NCBI GenBank assembly: GCA_009602725.1
Contig: WELB01000012.1
Coordinates: 833,098 to 897,097, forward strand
From: Spirogloea muscicola
Taxonomy: Eukaryota; Streptophyta; Zygnematophyceae; Spirogloeales; Spirogloeaceae
Length of the DNA stretch: 64,000 bases
Reading direction: 5' to 3'
A program made the translations under genes and the position numbers. Positions 2,153-53,119 of the stretch are shown here, one piece after another. The notes below the pieces were generated by a model, which did no database searches, was not told where the DNA came from, and was given only the letters and a program-made list of their open reading frames with translations. The stretch's first letter is position 1. Each line of letters starts with the position of its first letter.

Positions 2153-4344
2153 CTACCGACTAAGATTGGAGCTCAGCGCCTGGTGGGGGTTTGATGGCAA
2201 TTGCAGGTGGCTGTGACCAGCGCGGTGGCCTGTCTTCAAGTCAGACACGTGGGGTACTTGGCCGCCACATTGCTGTGCCAGAGCAAGCTTCAAGGCCTTC
2301 ACCTCGCTGAGAGAGCGACTTAGTGCAGCCTGGTATAGGTCTGACGTCAGCTTGAGCATCGCCTTCTCCTTCTCCTGCTGCTGCACCTTCTGCACCAAAT
2401 ATTTGATGGCAAGCGCCTTGCTGTCCTCCTTTGATATCTCATTTTGCTGCTGCTGCTGCTGCCGCTGCTTCGAGTGTAGTTCTGGCTGTAGAGCTGGCTG
2501 CAGGGATGACTCCTGCTGCGATACCTCTGGCACTTGCCCTGAAGGTTGTTGATGTGGCAGTTGCTGCAGTGGCTGCTGTGCTGGCTGCTCACTTGACGGT
2601 GGTGGCAGTGGCTGCTGTAGCTCCTCCTGCTCCTGAGGCTCTTGCTGCTGTGGCCCAGAGACGTCTGCCAAATTCGCGGCCACATCAGCAGTTTCCTCCT
2701 GCTCACCTGTGCAGAGGCCCTCCGGTTTGATGGGCACTGCATCAGCGGACAGCTCAGTTTCGGCTGCCGTATTACTATGATCTGCAGCTGCCTCCACAGG
2801 CTGTGCCACAACAGTGTCAGAATTGCTCAAGACCTCTGCTTTCTGCTCGACTGAGGTAGATGGTGGCCCCTGGCTTTCCAGTGGTTGGCATTCCGCTAGC
2901 TGGTGGCTGCAGGCAGGTGGCTCTGTCGTCACGCCCATCCCAGTCTTGCTGGCCTCAGCCTCAGACATTGTGTTGCCGCCATTGAACACTCCACTTTCAG
3001 CACCCTCTGGTACTTCTGGTACTTGAGGCTCGCAGGTTGTGTCTGGCTCTTGGTGTGACGGCTCTACTTCATGAGCAATGCTAGCATTGGAGGCATACTC
3101 CGTGACCAAGTCTTTGGCTGGTGAACTCGGCTCCAAGCCAGATGTCACCTCAACACTCGGCTCCGTTTCAGGGGTCTCGACAAATGCTGCCTGTGAGGAA
3201 TTGCTGGAGACCGCCGCATCAATGGCCTCCTGGAAAGCCACTGCAGCTTTCACCAACTCCCGGCGACGCTGCCTGACTGATGCATTGGTGGTCTGCAATT
3301 GCACACGACAAACATGCAGTAATTTTTAGTCATGCTCCATTGGGCAAGGAATGCAAGATGCAGATACAGTCACAAACCAATGCTTTTCCAACTACAAAAC
3401 ACTGAAAATCAGACAAGTCGGGACATCAACTCTATTGGTCCATAACTATCACGTATCAGACAAGTCAGGACATCAACTCTATTGGTCCATATCTATCACG
3501 TATTCTGCTGCGTCAATCTCAGCAAGCATGCCTATTGAGGCCGTGTGTGGGTGCAGAAACAGTACAGCAAGCTAATCAAAAGCCTTAGCTGGATGCAGCT
3601 CAATACCTGGATGCTGTCAAGCTGGAGGAGGTGACTCATGACCAGCTCTGCCCATCGCCGGCCGACCTTGGCATCCGTCCGCAGCAACTGCTTGTCCTCC
3701 GTCTCCCAAGATGTCTGCAGGTCCTTCAAGGAGCCCGCCAAGCTCACGAGCTTGCGCAGCTGCTGCAAGGGCCGACTGGCGCGCACAGCACGCCCACGGA
3801 ATGCCGCCTGGATCTTGGTTGCAGCAGCTGGCGGCTCCATACGCAGCCTGATGGAGACGCTGGGGCCGTCAGCGTCCCCCTTTCCCTCCTTCACCGGCAC
3901 TGGCACGACTTGGGGCTTGCTTTCCTTCACCACCTCTGATACCTTATCCTTCACCACCTCTGATACCTTAGACTGTTCACTGCGCTGTGCGCTGCTGGTG
4001 CTTGCTTCTCCACTGAATTTGGATGACAGCCAATGCACTGGTACAACTACTGGCCTCCCAGTCTCCGCAGGGCGCCGCGCACCGAGACCGTGGGCAGCGA
4101 TGTGCGGGCCGTCCCCATCGTGTGCAGCCACGCCCTTGTCCTTCTTGGTGGCGCGCGGCTGCACCCTGGCCAGCTTCCGCTCTCCGGCCAGCCTCTGCGG
4201 ACGTGCTGCGGCGGGCTGCCGTCGGAGAAGGTCGACCGCGGCGGGCACGAAGGGGCTGCCGCGCGCGAGGCCGGCCTGCGGCGGGACTGGTGGCCAGGCG
4301 CTGGGCGCGGCGAAGAGGTCCTCGAAGAAGGCGCCGCCACCCAT
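2153..4344 (-). CDS. BAG-domain co-chaperone with IQ motif (two exons)
   Basis: Predicted 625-residue protein of the plant BAG5/6 kind, whose BAG domain binds Hsp70 and whose IQ motif binds calmodulin. Exons are 4344-3607 and 3292-2153; the intron is phase 0 with GT-AG ends. The N-terminal 170 residues are basic and disordered. An IQ motif (TKIQAAFRGRAVRAS) lies at about 175-195. The BAG helices run from about 200 to 275 and are split by the intron (HLLQLDSIQ, then TTNASVRQRRRELV). A long acidic then glutamine-rich region follows, with a CAG/CAA run near 2,450, and the protein ends in a coiled coil. I chose the ATG at 4344 (MGGGAFFEDLF). The upstream ATG at 4617 would start inside a repeat tail and add a proline-rich stretch. 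The BAG/IQ arrangement is clear; the exact subfamily is not. Confidence 0.85.
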
Positions 4345-13650: not shown

Positions 13651-14148
13651 GATGGAACTTAGGCTCGAGCAAAGTTGATGTCTCTCATACTTCTGAGGTA
13701 CATGGAAGTAGCAATTTTAGAATATGATCCTAAACATTTTGGGTGATCACCACATGCAAATGGCCTCTCACAGTAGCATTGAATGGAAGTCGTTTAGCTT
13801 AAGGAACTTACATTTTCTGTTGAGAGCCTTTTGTTATAGCAACTTAAATGCAGGTTAGCATGTTGATTGCACACAGCTGCCATTGTTGGCCACACCAGAA
13901 GGAAAGATTGGGAAGGAGGCAGCCCACCAAAGCAGAAGTTGCCGTTGGAGCGGGCTGAGTACATAAATTCATAAATGATGCCTGCACTTGCTGCAGCGAG
14001 TGAAAAGGTGCTTGCGGTCAAATAAGAGAAGACTACTTGAAGTATGTGAACTTAGGCTGCTTCTGCTCGTGGTGGCCCTGTTACAGCGACCTGGCGCTCC
14101 CTCAGGGTCGACGACCCGTCTGGCAGCCCTGTGTGGGTGTAATAATCC

Positions 14149-15054
14149 ATGCCTGGGCCTCGCACTATGTTCAACACGATCTTGCTTCCCATCGGGAAGG
14201 TGCTCTTCATCAACGGTGCCAGCTCGGGCTATGCAGGTGTGACGAGGGATCAGCGTTGGCTCCATTGAGATCTGTGCTGCATACTTCAAGAAGTCATCTG
14301 ATGCAACCTGCGAGGCTGTAAGCTAGTGATATCCGCAGTCAGACGCACATCTTCTGCTGCATGGAATACGCTTGTGCAAATTGAAGTCGGCCGCAGGTAT
14401 CACACCGCTTGCACGACAGCATCAAATCCATACCTTCGCAATCCAACCGTGTCGCCCGGCTCGGCAGCGAGGTTTGGCGCTTTGTCACCGTCCACCATCG
14501 CCAGGCTGTTCCCGGCGTCTGCCACTCTCGCCCATGAATACAGGCCCATCCTGGCAGGAGGAAGCCCCTACACGTTCACCGCCCCCAGCCAAGTACGCGG
14601 GGGCCATGTAAACGTCTGTGGAGGCCTTCTCGCCACAGTACCTCGACTACCATATGAGTGCACCGCCCATCATCTCCCCGTCCTTGCCTACCTCCCTCCT
14701 CTACTCCCAGAACGTCCCCATCACGTTCTCGGCGGCGAAGGCCGTCTCTGTTGTGCTGATCGACCCCGGCGTGAGCACTCATGGCCTCACCATGGGTCAG
14801 CGCATGGTCAAGCTGCAGTGACCAAGTTCGTCGCCAACAGCAATGGCGCAATCTCAACAACAGTCACCCTCCCGCCCAACAGCAACATCGGCCCGCAGGA
14901 GTACTACTTGCTCTTTGTGATCGTCACACCTGACGGTGTTGGCGCAGCCGTTGTGCCATCTATATGTAAGTGGGTGCAACTAGGTGGGATCCCAGCCTAC
15001 CCGCCACCAGCCCCTTCGCCTTACCCCTCACCGCCACCATCAAGCTCTCGTTGA
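14149..15054 (+). pseudogene. decayed glyoxal-oxidase-like gene copy
   Basis: Homologous to the last two exons of the fusion gene at 16,078-21,551 and in opposite orientation. MPGPRTMFNTILLPIGKVLF with INGASSGYAG ends at a GT donor, matching exon 11 of that gene. Downstream are SAARFGALSPSTIARLFPAS, then VEAFSPQYLDYHMS, DPGVSTHGLTMGQRM and YYLLFVIVTPDG, matching exon 12. These pieces fall in different frames, with at least two shifts, and the usual middle section is eroded. The end is proline-rich. The first eleven exons' worth of sequence is missing apart from the end of exon 11. Confidence 0.75.
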
Positions 15055-16077
15055 GCAATGGTGCAGGCGACACACACCATTCGATTCCAACTCCATACAT
15101 GCTTGATAGATCAAGTATTGCTTAAACTCATAGCTGCCTAAGAGCTGTCGAGCTTGTACTTTTCAAGTCACACAAGATCACCGCATGTATTTGTCTTTCA
15201 GAGCACCTAAGTCAAGAATGTGCTCAAGCTTTGCAATGTATCACAGGTCCATCACAAGTAGGAAGTCATGTTTCTGTTGTTGGCAGGCCTTCACCCCTAA
15301 CCCAGTCACAGTGCCACATAATCGGCCCTCCTTCCAGCCGAGGGCCCCTCATACTTCCTCTGCAGGAGTTTAGACCTCACAGCACGATGTCCAATTCTTT
15401 CTTTCTTTGATCCTTTTCCTCCTCAAGGAAAGGTCGTTGCCATCAATGAGCTGGGCAGACCGTCTCTTAAGCAAATCTGATTCACTTCCTGAATGAGCAA
15501 ACTCACATGTCAATAGCACCTATTCTCAGGGATTCCAAGAGTATGGCTGCTGTAAGTATCCAAGAATTAATAACACACATAATAAGAAAATTCAAATGAT
15601 ACAAATGTCAGGCGTACATCACTTTTATGACAAGAATGTATACCTTCATGGAGCTTGCAGTCTGCACATTGCTGGAGCATGAGCAGGTAAAGGAGTGCAG
15701 GCAGATATACAACCTGACGCTGTGGCAAAGTGCCTGTGGGCAACTAGGCATACATGTGTGCAGCACATGTACAAGCCCACCAAGGTTCTTATTGCAAATC
15801 TTCTTGATGAATGTTCAGACAATCTGCACACAACCTCCTACTTGAAGGGTCAGACCAATGTGGTGGTTGCAGGACTGACGTTCGTGCTGCCCACCTGCAT
15901 GTCTGCTGGTTGGGCTGGGCATCACTCACTCATAAAATGACCATGTGAGCCTTCCGGCAAGTAAGAAATAACATCAATTTTTTAGTTGGTCAACTAGACC
16001 CTAGAAAGGAAGGAGGCAAATGGCAGGCTGCCGGCAGCAACAGGAAGGGAGGGACGATTCAAGCACGGGGCCAGTCA
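15055..16077. other. intergenic between convergent gene and pseudogene
   Basis: Low-complexity, AT-richer sequence with no family-level match that I can see. Short open frames at about 15,630-15,940 look incidental. Confidence 0.5.
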
Positions 16078-19000
16078 TCATGGGGGTGCTGGTCCAACAC
16101 TGATCCATATACCAGTCGAGGGCACAGCTGGCCCATTCGCTACTGCCTGCACCACGACAAAAAGCAGGTAGAAGCCCGGGGGACAAGTGGACGGCGTTGG
16201 GGGGCTGGTGAAGGACACAGTGTAGTTCCCTGTTGAGGTCTTGGTTGTACTGCTGGAGTCGAGCACGAGTGCACGCTGTCCCATGTTCCGGCCGTGTGTT
16301 GCTACTCCAGGGTCCATGAGAAGCACAGCCGCGGAGCTGACCGAGCCAGCTGAGAAGGAGATTTGATTGGCGTCATTATACTGAAGGTATTCGGGTAGTG
16401 AGGCAGGGTCAACACTAGGCTGAGGAGAGAGCTGCGCGGACAGGTAGGGCGGTGAGAAGGCCTCCACGGAGAGCGGGACGGTGGAGGGGTACTGCAGTGG
16501 GGCCTTTGCCACGGTGCTGCCCCCTGCAATGATCACTGTTCCATCAAAGCTGAGGGTTGCTGATGCTTGGTCTGGCCTGGCGATGGTGGAAGGTGGCAGG
16601 ACTCGGAATCTCGAGGAACTGCCAGGTGGCTGGCTTGGATCCAGAAGGAACGGGGTCAACAGAGGCTCGTCTGTGGTATTGCGCACTGCAGAACAGAGGA
16701 GCACTCAGACAAAACATGGCGGCAAAGGTACATCGATGATGGCAGCTCGGGGCAAGCCAAAGTTCGTGGCGAGCAGCGTGACCTGAGGAGCTCAGCTTAA
16801 GATGATCGAATACTGTGACGTTGGTTTGGGATGCTTGTGCAACCAGTATTCACCTGCACTGTGCAAGTGAGATTGGTGCATGCTCACAACAGCAGTACTC
16901 AGTCAACAGAGTTTCATGTTCACCTGCTGAGCCAGATGATGCGCCATTGATGAAGAGTACCTTGCCATCGGGCAAAAGTACAGTGCTGAACATGGTTCGC
17001 GGCCCTGGCATGTCCTCATACGTCCAGGTGGGTGAGGGATCACTGACATGGAGAGTACCGCAAGAAGAAGTGGCAGGGAGAGCGCCTCCGCAGACCATGA
17101 TGACCGCAGCAAAGCCGGCTGCAGCACGCAGTGGAAGCATGACACTGCCTGAAGCGTACGGGCTAGTCCTCGACAAGGAATTGGGGTCTCCACTGACATT
17201 AATGTCGGGAAAACTTCGGGTGCAGTTCCCGCTTCCAGCAGTGATGTTCAGCTCACACGCCTGTGACGCAAGCACAGCAGTGTGTTGTCAATCATTCATG
17301 ACCATATGTAACACACGCAGCGGGAAACAGGTTGGAAGGCAGGATTGCTCAGCAAAGGCAGGAAGGTGAGGAGATCTGCGACACGCTGGCTTCTCTCATA
17401 GGCTTCTGCACCTTGTTGTTGACAAGCAGAAAGAGGTTGCCACTAGGAAGAAGGTAGATGATCGGGTAGAGGTCGTAGTATCCAGCAGTCAAAAGGAGCG
17501 GGATTGAATGCGTGTTAGACCTCTCAAGAGGTCTCTGCTTCAAAAGCAGCTCATATGAGTAGCTTGTTGCAGCAATCGAGTCTGTGTCGTTGTTCAGGCC
17601 CTCGCCACCAACAAAGATGACATTGCCGTCCTGCAGCCTCTGTGCGGATGAAAAGAACCTGGTGACCAGCCCTTATGGAGCAGCTCAGCAAACGAGCATC
17701 GCCATGCTCGTGAAGCGGTTGCAGCATCTATGCTGCTGAAAGTACATAACCAAACTTCCTCTTCATTTGTTCAAGACAAGCCCAAGCACGTCAAGGCAAC
17801 GGCGAAGCAGGGAGCTGGTCAGGCTGACCTTCTTGTTCTGAGGGCCTGCTCAGGTGAGTCAAATTCGGCTGAGCCGTACGGCTGTGGATCGAAGCTCCTG
17901 AGGGCATACCAGCCCTTGGGGTCCGAACTGTTGCCGATGCCGCCAGCAACCAGCACTGCGCCTGTGGATGTGGTGTGACCGCAAGCGCCATACGTGTTTG
18001 TCACGGGCCCATGGAGGCCACGCACCTGTGCAGTCATAACTTGTTCAAGGCGCAAACCAGGTATCAAGTCCACTGTCACAGTTTTGAACTCCAGCTGCAG
18101 ACAAGCTCAGTATCTGCAGATTGACAGACCTGAAACGTGGTTGTGCTGAACTCCACAGCATGAGCGAAGCGGGACGCATCATCACTGGCCCTGACTCCCG
18201 TCTCCACGATATCCGTGCGATCCACAAAAAGGATGGTATTGTGCCGAGTCAGCACTGCCAGGGTGCCGGAGATACCAATGTCGGTGCTGAGCACAGCGAA
18301 GGCGCCAGCAAATGGAGGAGGTGGAGGGTGGACGGGCGGCCGTGGCGGCGGAGGACTGGGCGGCCTGGGAGGGAGAGCTCTTGGCGGCGGTGGGGAGGGA
18401 GGCGGCGGGGAGCTGGGAGGTGGGGGCCGCGGCGGCCTCGGCGGCGGGAAGTGGGGGCTCAGTGGCGGATTTGGGCTTCTGGGCGGCGGTGCTGGCTGCG
18501 CACTACAGCCTGGGATGGCACATCTGTCGTGGCCGGTGGCCTTGTACACACCACTCGGGGTCAGCATGTACGGATCGCCAATGTAGTCCTCACCCCAGGT
18601 GTGGATCTCCGGCACCGAGAGCGGACTGCCGGGTGTGTGGTTGAACGGGATGGGGAGAGTGGATTGGAGAGCCGCGTAGAAGCTGACAAACTGCTTGGCC
18701 ATGGTGGTCCACCGCGGCTGCCCGGGCCCGCTCGTGTCGGTCGCGATCCATGCCGCGCCATACTGGTCGACGTAGAAGTACTTGCCACCGTAGCAAGGGA
18801 CTCGCGGCGAGCGGTAGATGGGGCCGCCGATGACTGCAACGGAGGTCACTTTGACATGCGCGTCCTGGTGCGTGTAGGTCAACCTCGGCCACTGCGGCCA
18901 CAAAGGAAAGAGCAAGCTTGTGTCAGTGATGCTCTTTCTGCAGAAGTTGTGAAAGCGCTTTAGGTCTCTCCAGCTTTGGCAAGACAACTGCTTGATCAAT

Positions 19001-21551
19001 GAGGGAGACGCAAGTCATTGGGCAGCAATGGCTGGACCTCAAGGCCTCCCACCTTAAGCGTTCCGAAGATTTTGTGGGGGTCGGTGAAGCCGCCTGGCGG
19101 GGCATGCTTGTCATACTTTGCAATCTTTGTGAAATTCAACGTTCCTGTGCCAACAGAGTGGCAGCTGCATATTCAGACGTGCACCTTGCCATACGTCCGG
19201 TGCCATAAGAGCTGGCACCAGCAGGTAGCCCATCAGTGCGCAGCAGCAAGTGCTGGTGATGCCTTGGGGAGGTCCTGCCAGGGGCCGGAACTTCACACGC
19301 ACCTTCAAACATGCGCCAACCGTAGTTTCCTCCAGCCACAATGACATCAATCTCCTCCATGGTGTCCTGCAGTGCAGGAAGTCTAAGCTGGTGAGGGCTC
19401 CCGATGCTTGCAGTAGAGGCAACGATCCATATGAGAGAAAGCCAAGCATCTACAACGGCGACAGCAAAGGAGAGCGGCATCTGGCTAATGCAGAATAGTC
19501 AGAGCGTGGCTGGCTGTCAGACCTGGCCAACATCAGCACAGAGGAAGTCATCATTGTCGCGGTCAAAAGTGCAGCTCCAGGGGTTGCGCAAGCCAAGCGC
19601 ATAGATTTCGGGGCGAATCCCTGAGACGCCAACGAATGGGTTATGTGACGGTATCCCGTATGGACGGCTTGCTGTGTAGTTATCCACGTCAAGCCGCAGT
19701 ATTTTCCCGAGGAAGGTGGTGCCCCGCTGTGCGAAGTTGAAGATGTCGCCAGCTCCACCCCCATCACCGGACATGTAGTACATGTACGGCTCCAGCACAG
19801 TGCGCCGGAAGAGCAGGTGGCCGCCGTTGTGGTTGCTGTATGGCCTGCATGCAAAGCCCGTGGGACTCGCCAGCCAAAGTCAGCATCCACTGGGTGGCAG
19901 CTGCTGCAAACATGATGCCTCACCTGCCAAGGAGCTCCCCTGGCGTTCTCTACCTCGCGAATGTGAGGAGCCTCCGGACTTCAGCTTTGATGGCGACTGT
20001 CGCTGTACGTGGGCTGGAGCCCGCACTGTACTCGGCAACAATCGTGTTGGCCTCACACAAGGGCTGCTGCGAGGCTCCAACGTTGGGCTGCGGGATGTGA
20101 CACTGATTGACCGCATTGCACTCGCACGGCCCTTGGCAGTCCGGGTACTTGGTGCCATTGCAGATGTACGACACAAAGAAGCGGCCATTGACAAGGTAGT
20201 CCGGGTGCAGTGCAAACCCCAGCAGGCCACGCTCGCCGTTGGCTAAAGTCCTCGAGTGAATATCAAGAAACTGCACATGTGATGAGCGTGATCAGGGCGG
20301 ACCTTCGCCAAGGCGTAGCGGCCTCGTCACAGGAGGCGGTAGGCGCTGGCGCTCGAGCAGCACCAGCCAGCAGCGGGCTTGGCATAAGGAGGTTTGACTT
20401 ACAACGGTCCTGTTGGCAAACCTCTTGCCGCTGCCTTCTGGCGGGACCTGCGCAAGAAAAACATAGCCGCTGCGCGTGTGCAGGAAGACGCGGTTGGAGC
20501 CGTCGGGGTGCGGCAGCATGCCCAGGTAGTACCCATCATCGACCCGGTCGAGACAGATGTTGGGCAGCGGCGGCGCCGAGCTGGTTGGCGGAGGCGGCAC
20601 GTACGGCGGCGGCGGCGGCGCTGGGGGGAGCGGGCCATTGGGATCGTAAGGCAAGCCGGAGAAGCAGCGGTCCTGGTATGGCGACGCGCAGAAGTCGAGC
20701 CGAAATGCAGCCAGCGTCGGGTACTTGTCGCGCAGGCGGAACGCTGCCGGGCTTGGCTGCACGTTGAGCTCGTCGCGCTGTGCCTGCAGGTACTGGAGGT
20801 AGAGCGGCGAGTACGTGACGTTGAGGCCAGCGCAAGCTGCGTACGCGCCGTCGCAGTAGCTCCCCAGGCAGAGCAGCGGCAGAGCGCGCGCCGCGCCGAC
20901 CTCCGAGTCGAACAGGTGCGACGCCCACGGGTCGCATTGCTACAATGGACGCACGGCAGGTCGTTAAAGCCCGTCAGCGAGCTTCGCGACGGGGCATACT
21001 GTCAGTCGATCAGCGACCATGGTGGCCGCCACTTGCAGCGACCAGGTAGACGAGGGAGCTCACCGCGCAGGTGGCGAGCTGCAGGAAGGTCCGGCAGCCC
21101 GCAACCTCGTCGGCGGAGCCACCCGAGAAGGCCATCTGGGCGGCCTGCCGCTGCAGCCGGACGTCCGCGTCGTAGTCGCAGCACCCCAGGTGGGCGTACG
21201 CGCCGCCGTGGAGCTGCATGCAGAAGGGGCCCGCGGGGGACTGCGGCACAGGCCCGGCTGCGAGCGCCACCACCAAGAGCTCCGATCAGGGCGCCAATGC
21301 AAGGCACCACGGCGCCCGCAGCACAGCTGTCGCGGTGACGGAGACGTGATCTATGTCAAGCCAAGGAGCTACCGACGAGAGCTGACGACACAGTGGAGCT
21401 GGCCACGCCTGCGAGAGCAGCGGCGGCGGTGCTCACAGAAGTCCTCGCAGATGGGGTGCGCCAGCGCGCTCCCGACGAGCAGCAGCAGCGCGGCGGCCAC
21501 GGCGCGCGCCGGCCGTCCGCTGCTGCGGCGGGCGTGCCGCCGAGACGCCAT
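16078..21551 (-). CDS. HIPL dehydrogenase fused to a glyoxal-oxidase-like protein (12 exons)
   Basis: Predicted secreted protein of 1,263 residues. Exons: 21551-21437, 21257-21064, 20939-20403, 20270-19954, 19844-19523, 19366-19303, 19144-19053, 18891-18130, 18025-17829, 17658-17412, 17260-16924, 16685-16078. All introns are GT-AG, every phase matches, and the sum is an exact multiple of three. Residues 1-32 are a signal peptide (AAALLLLVGSALA). HPICEDFS and a cysteine-rich folate-receptor-like region run to about 200, followed by a proline linker (203-229). A glucose/sorbosone-dehydrogenase propeller of HIPL type spans 230-670 (GERGLLGFALHPDY, NHNGGHLLF, ALGLRNPW, CADVGQ, GGNYGWR). A PPSPPP linker covers 679-740. 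A kelch-type glyoxal/galactose-oxidase propeller plus DUF1929-like end fills 741-1263. One uninterrupted exon (18891-18130) holds the end of the first enzyme, the linker and the start of the second, so this is a real fusion and not two genes. The radical-copper site looks degenerate (see findings). Confidence 0.85.
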
Positions 21552-53048: not shown

Positions 53049-53119
53049 GCGCCGCTGGTGTAGTGGTATCATAGTACCCTCCCACGGTACTGACCGGGGT
53101 TCGATTCCCCGGCGGCGCA
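53049..53119 (+). tRNA. trnG-CCC: tRNA-Gly(CCC)
   Basis: A complete 71-nt cloverleaf without intron. The acceptor stem GCGCCGC (53049-53055) pairs with GCGGCGC (53112-53118), and the discriminator is A. The anticodon stem GTACC/GGTAC encloses loop CTCCCAC, anticodon CCC at 53081-53083. The T-arm CGGGG-TTCGATT-CCCCG is perfect, and the internal A-box (TGGTGTAGTGG) and B-box (GGTTCGATTCC) match nuclear tRNA genes. Confidence 0.95.

Follow-up and report, generated by a model that had tools for sequence, protein, structure and literature searches.

An in-frame fusion of a HIPL-type protein with a glyoxal-oxidase fold of replaced copper site in Spirogloea muscicola

A gene joining a HIPL-type half to a glyoxal oxidase (GLOX)-like half was analysed in a 64,000-nucleotide stretch of the genome of Spirogloea muscicola, a unicellular zygnematophyte among the green algal relatives of land plants (contig WELB01000012.1, here C12:833098-897097; called the window below). 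The HIPL-GLOX combination is a real, selected and apparently undescribed architecture of two known families. The explanation favoured here, to which a probability of about 0.55 is given, is that of a secreted HIPL-type dehydrogenase carrying a dead GLOX domain, i.e. one whose copper-site residues are replaced, as a matrix module instead of a glycosylphosphatidylinositol (GPI)-type anchor, the fusion having a single origin.

The gene model was built by splice-aware alignment, using the land-plant HIPL P0006 for the first half and the second domain of the Spirogloea protein P0122 for the second half. The joined alignments gave 12 GT-AG exons of 3,792 nt including the stop TGA, coding for 1,263 amino acids without any internal stop, and no N is present inside the gene. 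These numbers, obtained from outside proteins, are the same as those of a preliminary description of this DNA, which had also placed the junction within one open exon. That exon (exon 8) revealed no stop in the coding frame against five and four in the other two frames, and it takes in the HIPL end, the proline linker and ~60 residues at the start of the GLOX half. The linker showed a proline-rich SPPP-type composition as in extensin-like hydroxyproline-rich linkers; a likeness to hydroxyproline-rich wall glycoproteins had been noted earlier. The Pfam search detected GSDH (PF07995, 1.9e-22), Glyoxal_oxid_N (1.6e-16) and GO-like_E_set (5.7e-19), each above cut-off, using a 13-exon, 1,292-aa draft whose numbering is identical to the final model up to residue 801. 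The domain order described before was thus recovered for the GSDH, linker and GLOX parts; the folate-receptor-like assignment was not, as PF03024 gave no match at E<=1 with the draft protein. The cysteine-rich N-terminal region was recognised solely by its alignment with land-plant HIPL, and a short internal proline stretch follows it. The HIPL part extends beyond the Pfam GSDH match to about residue 678. The protein ends in ...GIWISVGPAPP, where a hydrophobic tail or GPI-anchor signal is absent by eye. A protein search with exon 12 only gave one match, P0001, among 389 candidates.

The genome (153 Mb, 471 contigs) was searched for further copies. HIPL-like and GLOX-like matches recurred, all counts being at-least values, and 20 regions were taken for comparison. 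Fused same-strand loci were found on six contigs, namely C12 (the window), C95, C123, C390a, C289 and C105b. The C95 copy showed 94.0% identity over 1,259 aligned residues (from residue 4) and the C390a copy 75.7% over 1,240 (from residue 14), both with 12 exons and free of stops and frameshifts over the aligned stretch, outside which their start codons lie. The C123 copy showed 93.2% identity over 1,258 aligned residues with two frameshifts; C289 is broken by 7 frameshifts and 4 stops, and C105b by 5 frameshifts and a large deletion. Exon 8 is open and of a length divisible by three in C12 (762 nt), C95 (765), C123 (918) and C390a (798), with no stop between the halves in these four copies; in C289 it measures 784 nt, is not divisible by three and holds 3 stops. 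The C123 linker (L026, exon 8, 3423-4340) is lengthened by an in-frame stretch resembling the remainder of the linker. The six fused copies formed two sets of three in both the HIPL and the GLOX trees, C12/C95/C123 and C390a/C289/C105b. This pattern is as would be expected from one duplication followed by triplication. A recent whole-genome triplication of Spirogloea muscicola is mentioned, with reference to Cheng et al. 2019, in a paper of 2022 (PMC9065682).

Selection on the fused frame was estimated from pairwise Nei-Gojobori values of nonsynonymous (dN) and synonymous (dS) substitution. For C12-C390a, dS was 0.863 in the HIPL half, 2.144 in the linker and 0.810 in the GLOX half, with dN/dS of 0.175, 0.163 and 0.192 respectively. 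The linker dS between the two sets is near saturation and its C12-C390a ratio is rough, having a bootstrap 95% interval of 0.08-0.38 (764 usable of 1,000 resamples, the others being saturated). The dN/dS values for C12-C95 were 0.175 (HIPL), 0.329 (linker) and 0.208 (GLOX), and those for C12-C123 were 0.095 (290 codons, downstream of the C123 frameshifts), 0.305 and 0.211. The similar dS of the HIPL and GLOX halves indicates that they diverged together as one unit, and the low dN/dS indicates translation and use of the fused frame. The paralogous fused copies, together with purifying selection, exclude chance. With six fused loci on six contigs, of which three share the 12-exon layout and lack stops and frameshifts in the aligned stretch, and with an in-frame linker under selection, the earlier claim of a true fusion, and not an annotation merge or assembly join, is supported.

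The copper site of the GLOX half was compared in an alignment of 34 GLOX sequences. In the structure 9N3U the copper ligands are given as Y738, H739, H826 and Y510, the last cross-linked to C450 (PMC13094651). The five copper-radical positions read C/Y/Y/H/H in P0122 domain 1, C67 and C365, and C/Y/Y/H in six further active-type copies, whose E-set lies outside the sequence piece compared. All six fused copies showed G/F/D/Q/H, that is, four of the five are replaced. In the window the Cys became G814, the cross-link Tyr F869 and the axial Tyr-His pair D1100-Q1101, the last His being kept as H1192, and the alignment of the window GLOX to 9N3U agreed with these replacements. Judged by its defining residues, no oxidase is expected in the GLOX half, and the two-domain oxidoreductase put forward in the preliminary description is not supported as regards a copper-oxidase half.

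The Cys and the cross-link Tyr were likewise lost, where covered, in the convergent GLOX copies, in both domains of C118, C152 and C2, in P0122 domain 2 and in the copies C20:610k, C20:612k, C341:6k and C341:4k. The alignment covers neither position in the C95 and C12 convergent copies, and in some dead GLOX outside the fused set the Tyr lies one column off, making the Tyr call less sure there. Since these other dead domains also lack both residues, the loss of the copper site would predate the fusion. In P0122 (1,218 aa) a proline linker joins an active-type GLOX to a dead GLOX behind it. No place identical to P0122 was present among the genome matches listed (38 of 5,982 candidates scored), the one region taken for it being N throughout. 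The domain order of P0122 was also read at C20:605800-611895, without stop or frameshift, its linker lying within one 924-nt exon (609620-610543) and its first small exon being doubtful. A further dead GLOX lies downstream of this in-frame pair (C20:605618-614400; L017, L019, L023), and at C341 the aligner jumped to a further dead GLOX. C118, C152 and C2 carry two dead GLOX domains in tandem. At C118:65800-75700 (L037) two dead GLOX domains stand on the same strand behind a divergent, proline-tailed HIPL; the tail ends ~0.57 kb upstream of them with a stop in the HIPL frame, and the three form at most a candidate fusion. As read from these genes, at least two kinds of partner, HIPL and active-type GLOX, precede the dead-GLOX fold. 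It may tentatively be proposed, at somewhat less than even odds, that the GLOX fold serves as a reusable non-catalytic matrix-binding module on proline linkers behind either partner, replacing a membrane anchor in one of them and being gained or lost as a unit, similar to a carbohydrate-binding module (CBM).

Seven further loci (C105a, C390b, C285, C28, C462, C30 and C76) encode HIPL with a proline-rich tail and no GLOX part. Neither stop nor frameshift interrupts the HIPL frame in C105a, C390b and C28; frameshifts were counted in C285 (4), C462 (1, with one stop), C30 (5) and C76 (1), and in the tails of C462, C30 and C76 the proline coding ceases before the stop. A HIPL C-terminal fragment was also seen inside long proline-coding repeats at C231 (L043). 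All seven loci have GLOX sequence on the opposite strand, tail to tail, which is clean in C105a and C285 and partial or damaged in the other five; the fused loci C95 and C123 also carry a decayed tail-to-tail GLOX copy, like the window. In the DNA of C105a, the HIPL block was matched by window 18460-21548 (87%) and the GLOX side by window 14069-15854 (82%), with only ~430 bp at C105a in place of window 15855-18459, which runs from the linker to past the end of the GLOX half. C28, the other unfused locus aligned of the seven, gave the same picture. In the HIPL tree the seven unfused loci grouped with C12/C95/C123 (0.99), with C390a/C289/C105b outside, and in the GLOX tree the fused domains were monophyletic (1.0), supports being FastTree local values. 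C39, C42, C231 (partial) and the second C28 place at 344-346 kb were dropped from the HIPL tree, and the convergent copies of C28, C30 and C76 (poor alignments) and L014 (partial) from the GLOX tree; broken rows entered with stops and shifts omitted. The seven unfused loci seem to descend from a fused form that lost its GLOX part by deletion. The simplest reading of these alignments would be complementary losses, in which the fusion came first, one lineage later lost the GLOX part and, in the C12 lineage, it was the separate GLOX that decayed. An ancestral state of unfused tail-to-tail pairs with fusion by inverted duplication was also considered and was ranked second in the light of the HIPL tree and the DNA alignment.

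Two separate genes or transcripts, one for a HIPL terminating within or close to the linker and another for the GLOX half, would be in keeping with the unfused HIPL and separate GLOX copies at sister loci, and with the GLOX half of C390a, where an earlier Met stands 27 residues into the domain. In the window, the GLOX half has no Met before residue 990, 250 residues from its start, and no stop is present at the HIPL end, so the two halves cannot be two plain genes there. One exon spans the junction, C12, C95, C123 and C390a lack a stop between the halves, and the linker dN/dS is 0.16-0.33 in pairs with C12, which leaves separate transcripts very improbable. A two-headed oxidoreductase, whose HIPL half oxidises sugar and whose GLOX half works as a copper oxidase making H2O2, might be argued from the GLOX fold being well preserved in Pfam and under purifying selection, and from the one copper ligand still present, H1192. 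Against it, the cross-linked Cys and Tyr and the axial Tyr-His are replaced in every fused copy and kept in nine active-type copies. As described for 9N3U, the replaced residues hold the copper and form the cofactor (PMC13094651), and a working oxidase in the GLOX half is extremely improbable.

For the HIPL half, the solved-structure matches were HHIP (1.3e-22) and the pyrroloquinoline quinone (PQQ)-dependent soluble glucose dehydrogenase (sGDH, 5.8e-14). Its GLRNP (19594 region) corresponds to GHRNP of sGDH, HHIP having GLHDP; GGNYGW (19330 region) is retained in alignment with sGDH, and HNGG is present (19837 region). The residues of these three motifs presumably take part in PQQ binding or catalysis. 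On the strength of the motifs, the HIPL half is probably a working sugar (aldose) dehydrogenase of quinoprotein-like type. The HIPL half of the same fused protein could instead be non-catalytic as well, a binding or signalling propeller like animal HHIP, since its best solved matches are hedgehog-interacting proteins, which to our knowledge are not enzymes, and the literature search on plant HIPL gave no enzyme activity. This is considered unlikely, if far from negligible, in view of GLRNP and GGNYGW, common to PQQ glucose dehydrogenase, being kept where HHIP has GLHDP. As to history, descent from an unfused tail-to-tail HIPL/GLOX pair by two independent fusions agrees with the grouping of the seven unfused loci with C12/C95/C123, by which gain-gain and gain-loss are equal in events. 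The monophyly of the fused GLOX domains, their common exon layout, the dS between the sets being alike in both halves and the alignment of the unfused loci to the window on either side of the missing 2.6 kb block render two fusions improbable.

According to the favoured explanation, a multidomain protein would be secreted and its linker hydroxylated in the hydroxyproline manner, with the N-terminal quinoprotein-like half of HIPL type acting as a sugar (aldose) dehydrogenase. The GLOX fold would have lost its copper-tyrosyl-radical site before fusion and become a non-catalytic accessory module. On its linker, the dead GLOX would retain the dehydrogenase in wall or mucilage, taking over from the GPI-type anchor found at the C-terminus of ordinary HIPLs. 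A single fusion event, as we infer the order, took place before a duplication and before the genome triplication, and one descendant lineage then deleted the GLOX part, its HIPL now ending in the proline tail. C95, C12 and C390a code for no hydrophobic C-terminal tail; by eye, the HIPL end is hydrophobic in C28:42k and in P0027 (EukProt protein SM000027S09608, locus s27:301252-304972, with 854 of 854 residues agreeing with contig C27 of the same genome at that locus). Three Arabidopsis HIPLs appear in a published table of GPI-anchored proteins (PMC6726743). A tether to wall or surface, as suggested in the preliminary description, would be a reasonable hypothesis.

Several observations weigh against this explanation. 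The literature searched gave no demonstration that any plant or algal HIPL uses PQQ, and polysaccharide binding by the dead GLOX is a guess. Event counting ties one fusion plus one loss with two fusions. The seven HIPL loci without a GLOX part imply that the module is dispensable, and since three of the six fused copies (C123, C289 and C105b) are broken, the gene is not strongly constrained everywhere. Among the database rows compared, neither a fused or near-identical (83-98%) HIPL of this genome nor its proline-tailed copies were present; other proteins of the same genome, P0027 and P0122, were. The missing copies indicate that the public gene set may split, miss or model these loci differently.

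The coordinates are summarized in Table 1. The only Rfam match above gathering score in the window was a tRNA-Gly with anticodon CCC at 53049-53119 on the forward strand.

Table 1. Positions in the window of the HIPL-GLOX gene, its parts and the neighbouring GLOX copy
Feature	Position	Strand	Detail or basis
Whole HIPL-GLOX fusion gene	16078..21551	-	12 exons, 1,263 aa
Exons 1-6	21551-21437, 21257-21064, 20939-20403, 20270-19954, 19844-19523, 19366-19303	-	
Exons 7-12	19144-19053, 18891-18130, 18025-17829, 17658-17412, 17260-16924, 16685-16078 (stop included)	-	
Putative signal peptide, residues 1-30	21462..21551	-	by eye; residue 31 begins at 21461
HIPL-type cysteine-rich N-terminal region, residues ~31-201, two introns within	20646..21461	-	alignment to land-plant HIPL
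GSDH propeller, Pfam extent, residues 245-543	19060..20516	-	Pfam, motif alignments
Exon 8, junction exon (HIPL end, linker, start of GLOX half)	18130..18891	-	open in coding frame only
Proline-rich linker, residues 679-739	18316..18498	-	sequence
GLOX-like propeller, from residue 740, continuing into exon 12	16924..18315	-	Pfam, alignments
Last exon: remainder of propeller with D1100-Q1101, then GO-like E-set (~16395-16096) with H1192 kept	16078..16685	-	
Separate GLOX copy, decayed, facing the fusion tail to tail	14087..14994 (pieces 14087-14236 and 14420-14994)	+	3 stops, 2 frameshifts in aligned stretch

The novelty of the architecture was assessed in databases and literature. The preliminary description knew of no HIPL-GLOX fusion, and no paper on one was found among the literature matches listed in a search that left subscription papers, supplements and the Spirogloea genome paper outside. 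No paper on HIPL function was found among the matches listed. The search for a second protein carrying both domains gave, as weak evidence, none among the best 120 of 1,195 HIPL-region rows nor among the six of six GLOX-region rows. The HIPL-region candidates had 0.55-1.75 times the query length and the GLOX-region search scored the 7,993 candidates sharing most words, its query, also used on the genome, being approximate (23 residues of intron 8 added, 7 residues of exon 10 missing, and wrong around a false intron-11 exon). A count of 209 Pfam domain combinations unique to Zygnematophyceae is reported in PMC11096116, and the HIPL-GLOX combination may be one of them. With fused and unfused HIPL occurring side by side in a single genome, the place where HIPL works can be compared in a natural setting, the anchor seemingly having been swapped for a matrix module. 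A GLOX fold without a copper site under purifying selection also advises caution against naming every Glyoxal_oxid_N protein an oxidase.

Among known systems, the plant HIPLs (HIPL1/HIPL2; PF07995) resemble the first half in their GSDH propeller and, as far as the alignment shows, in their cysteine-rich N-terminal region, with 36-41% identity to most of the land-plant proteins listed, and land-plant HIPLs were among its top database matches. They differ in lacking a GLOX domain in the 120 of 1,195 database rows compared, and the Arabidopsis members are listed as GPI-anchored (PMC6726743), whereas the fusion has a linker and a dead GLOX without a hydrophobic tail. From its predicted C-terminus, the missing GPI-type tail sets the fusion apart from ordinary HIPL; the kinship of the HIPL half stands. 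Animal HHIP is its best solved match but has GLHDP where the fusion keeps GLRNP. The AA5_1 glyoxal oxidases (9N3U; PF07250 and PF09118) share both Pfam domains with the second half and match it at fold level (9N3U, 5.7e-28), yet as copper radical oxidases they hold the residues of which four in five are replaced in the fusion. The Spirogloea GLOX-linker-dead GLOX proteins (P0122 and C20) likewise have a catalytic-type domain followed, after a proline linker, by a dead GLOX, the partner being an active-type GLOX and not HIPL. The mushroom PQQ pyranose dehydrogenase CcPDH (AA12) is described as a PQQ sugar dehydrogenase with a C-terminal cellulose-binding module, which is an analogy and not a kinship; its described architecture comprises an AA12 catalytic domain, a cytochrome b domain and CBM1, with no GLOX fold among these (PMC4332668).

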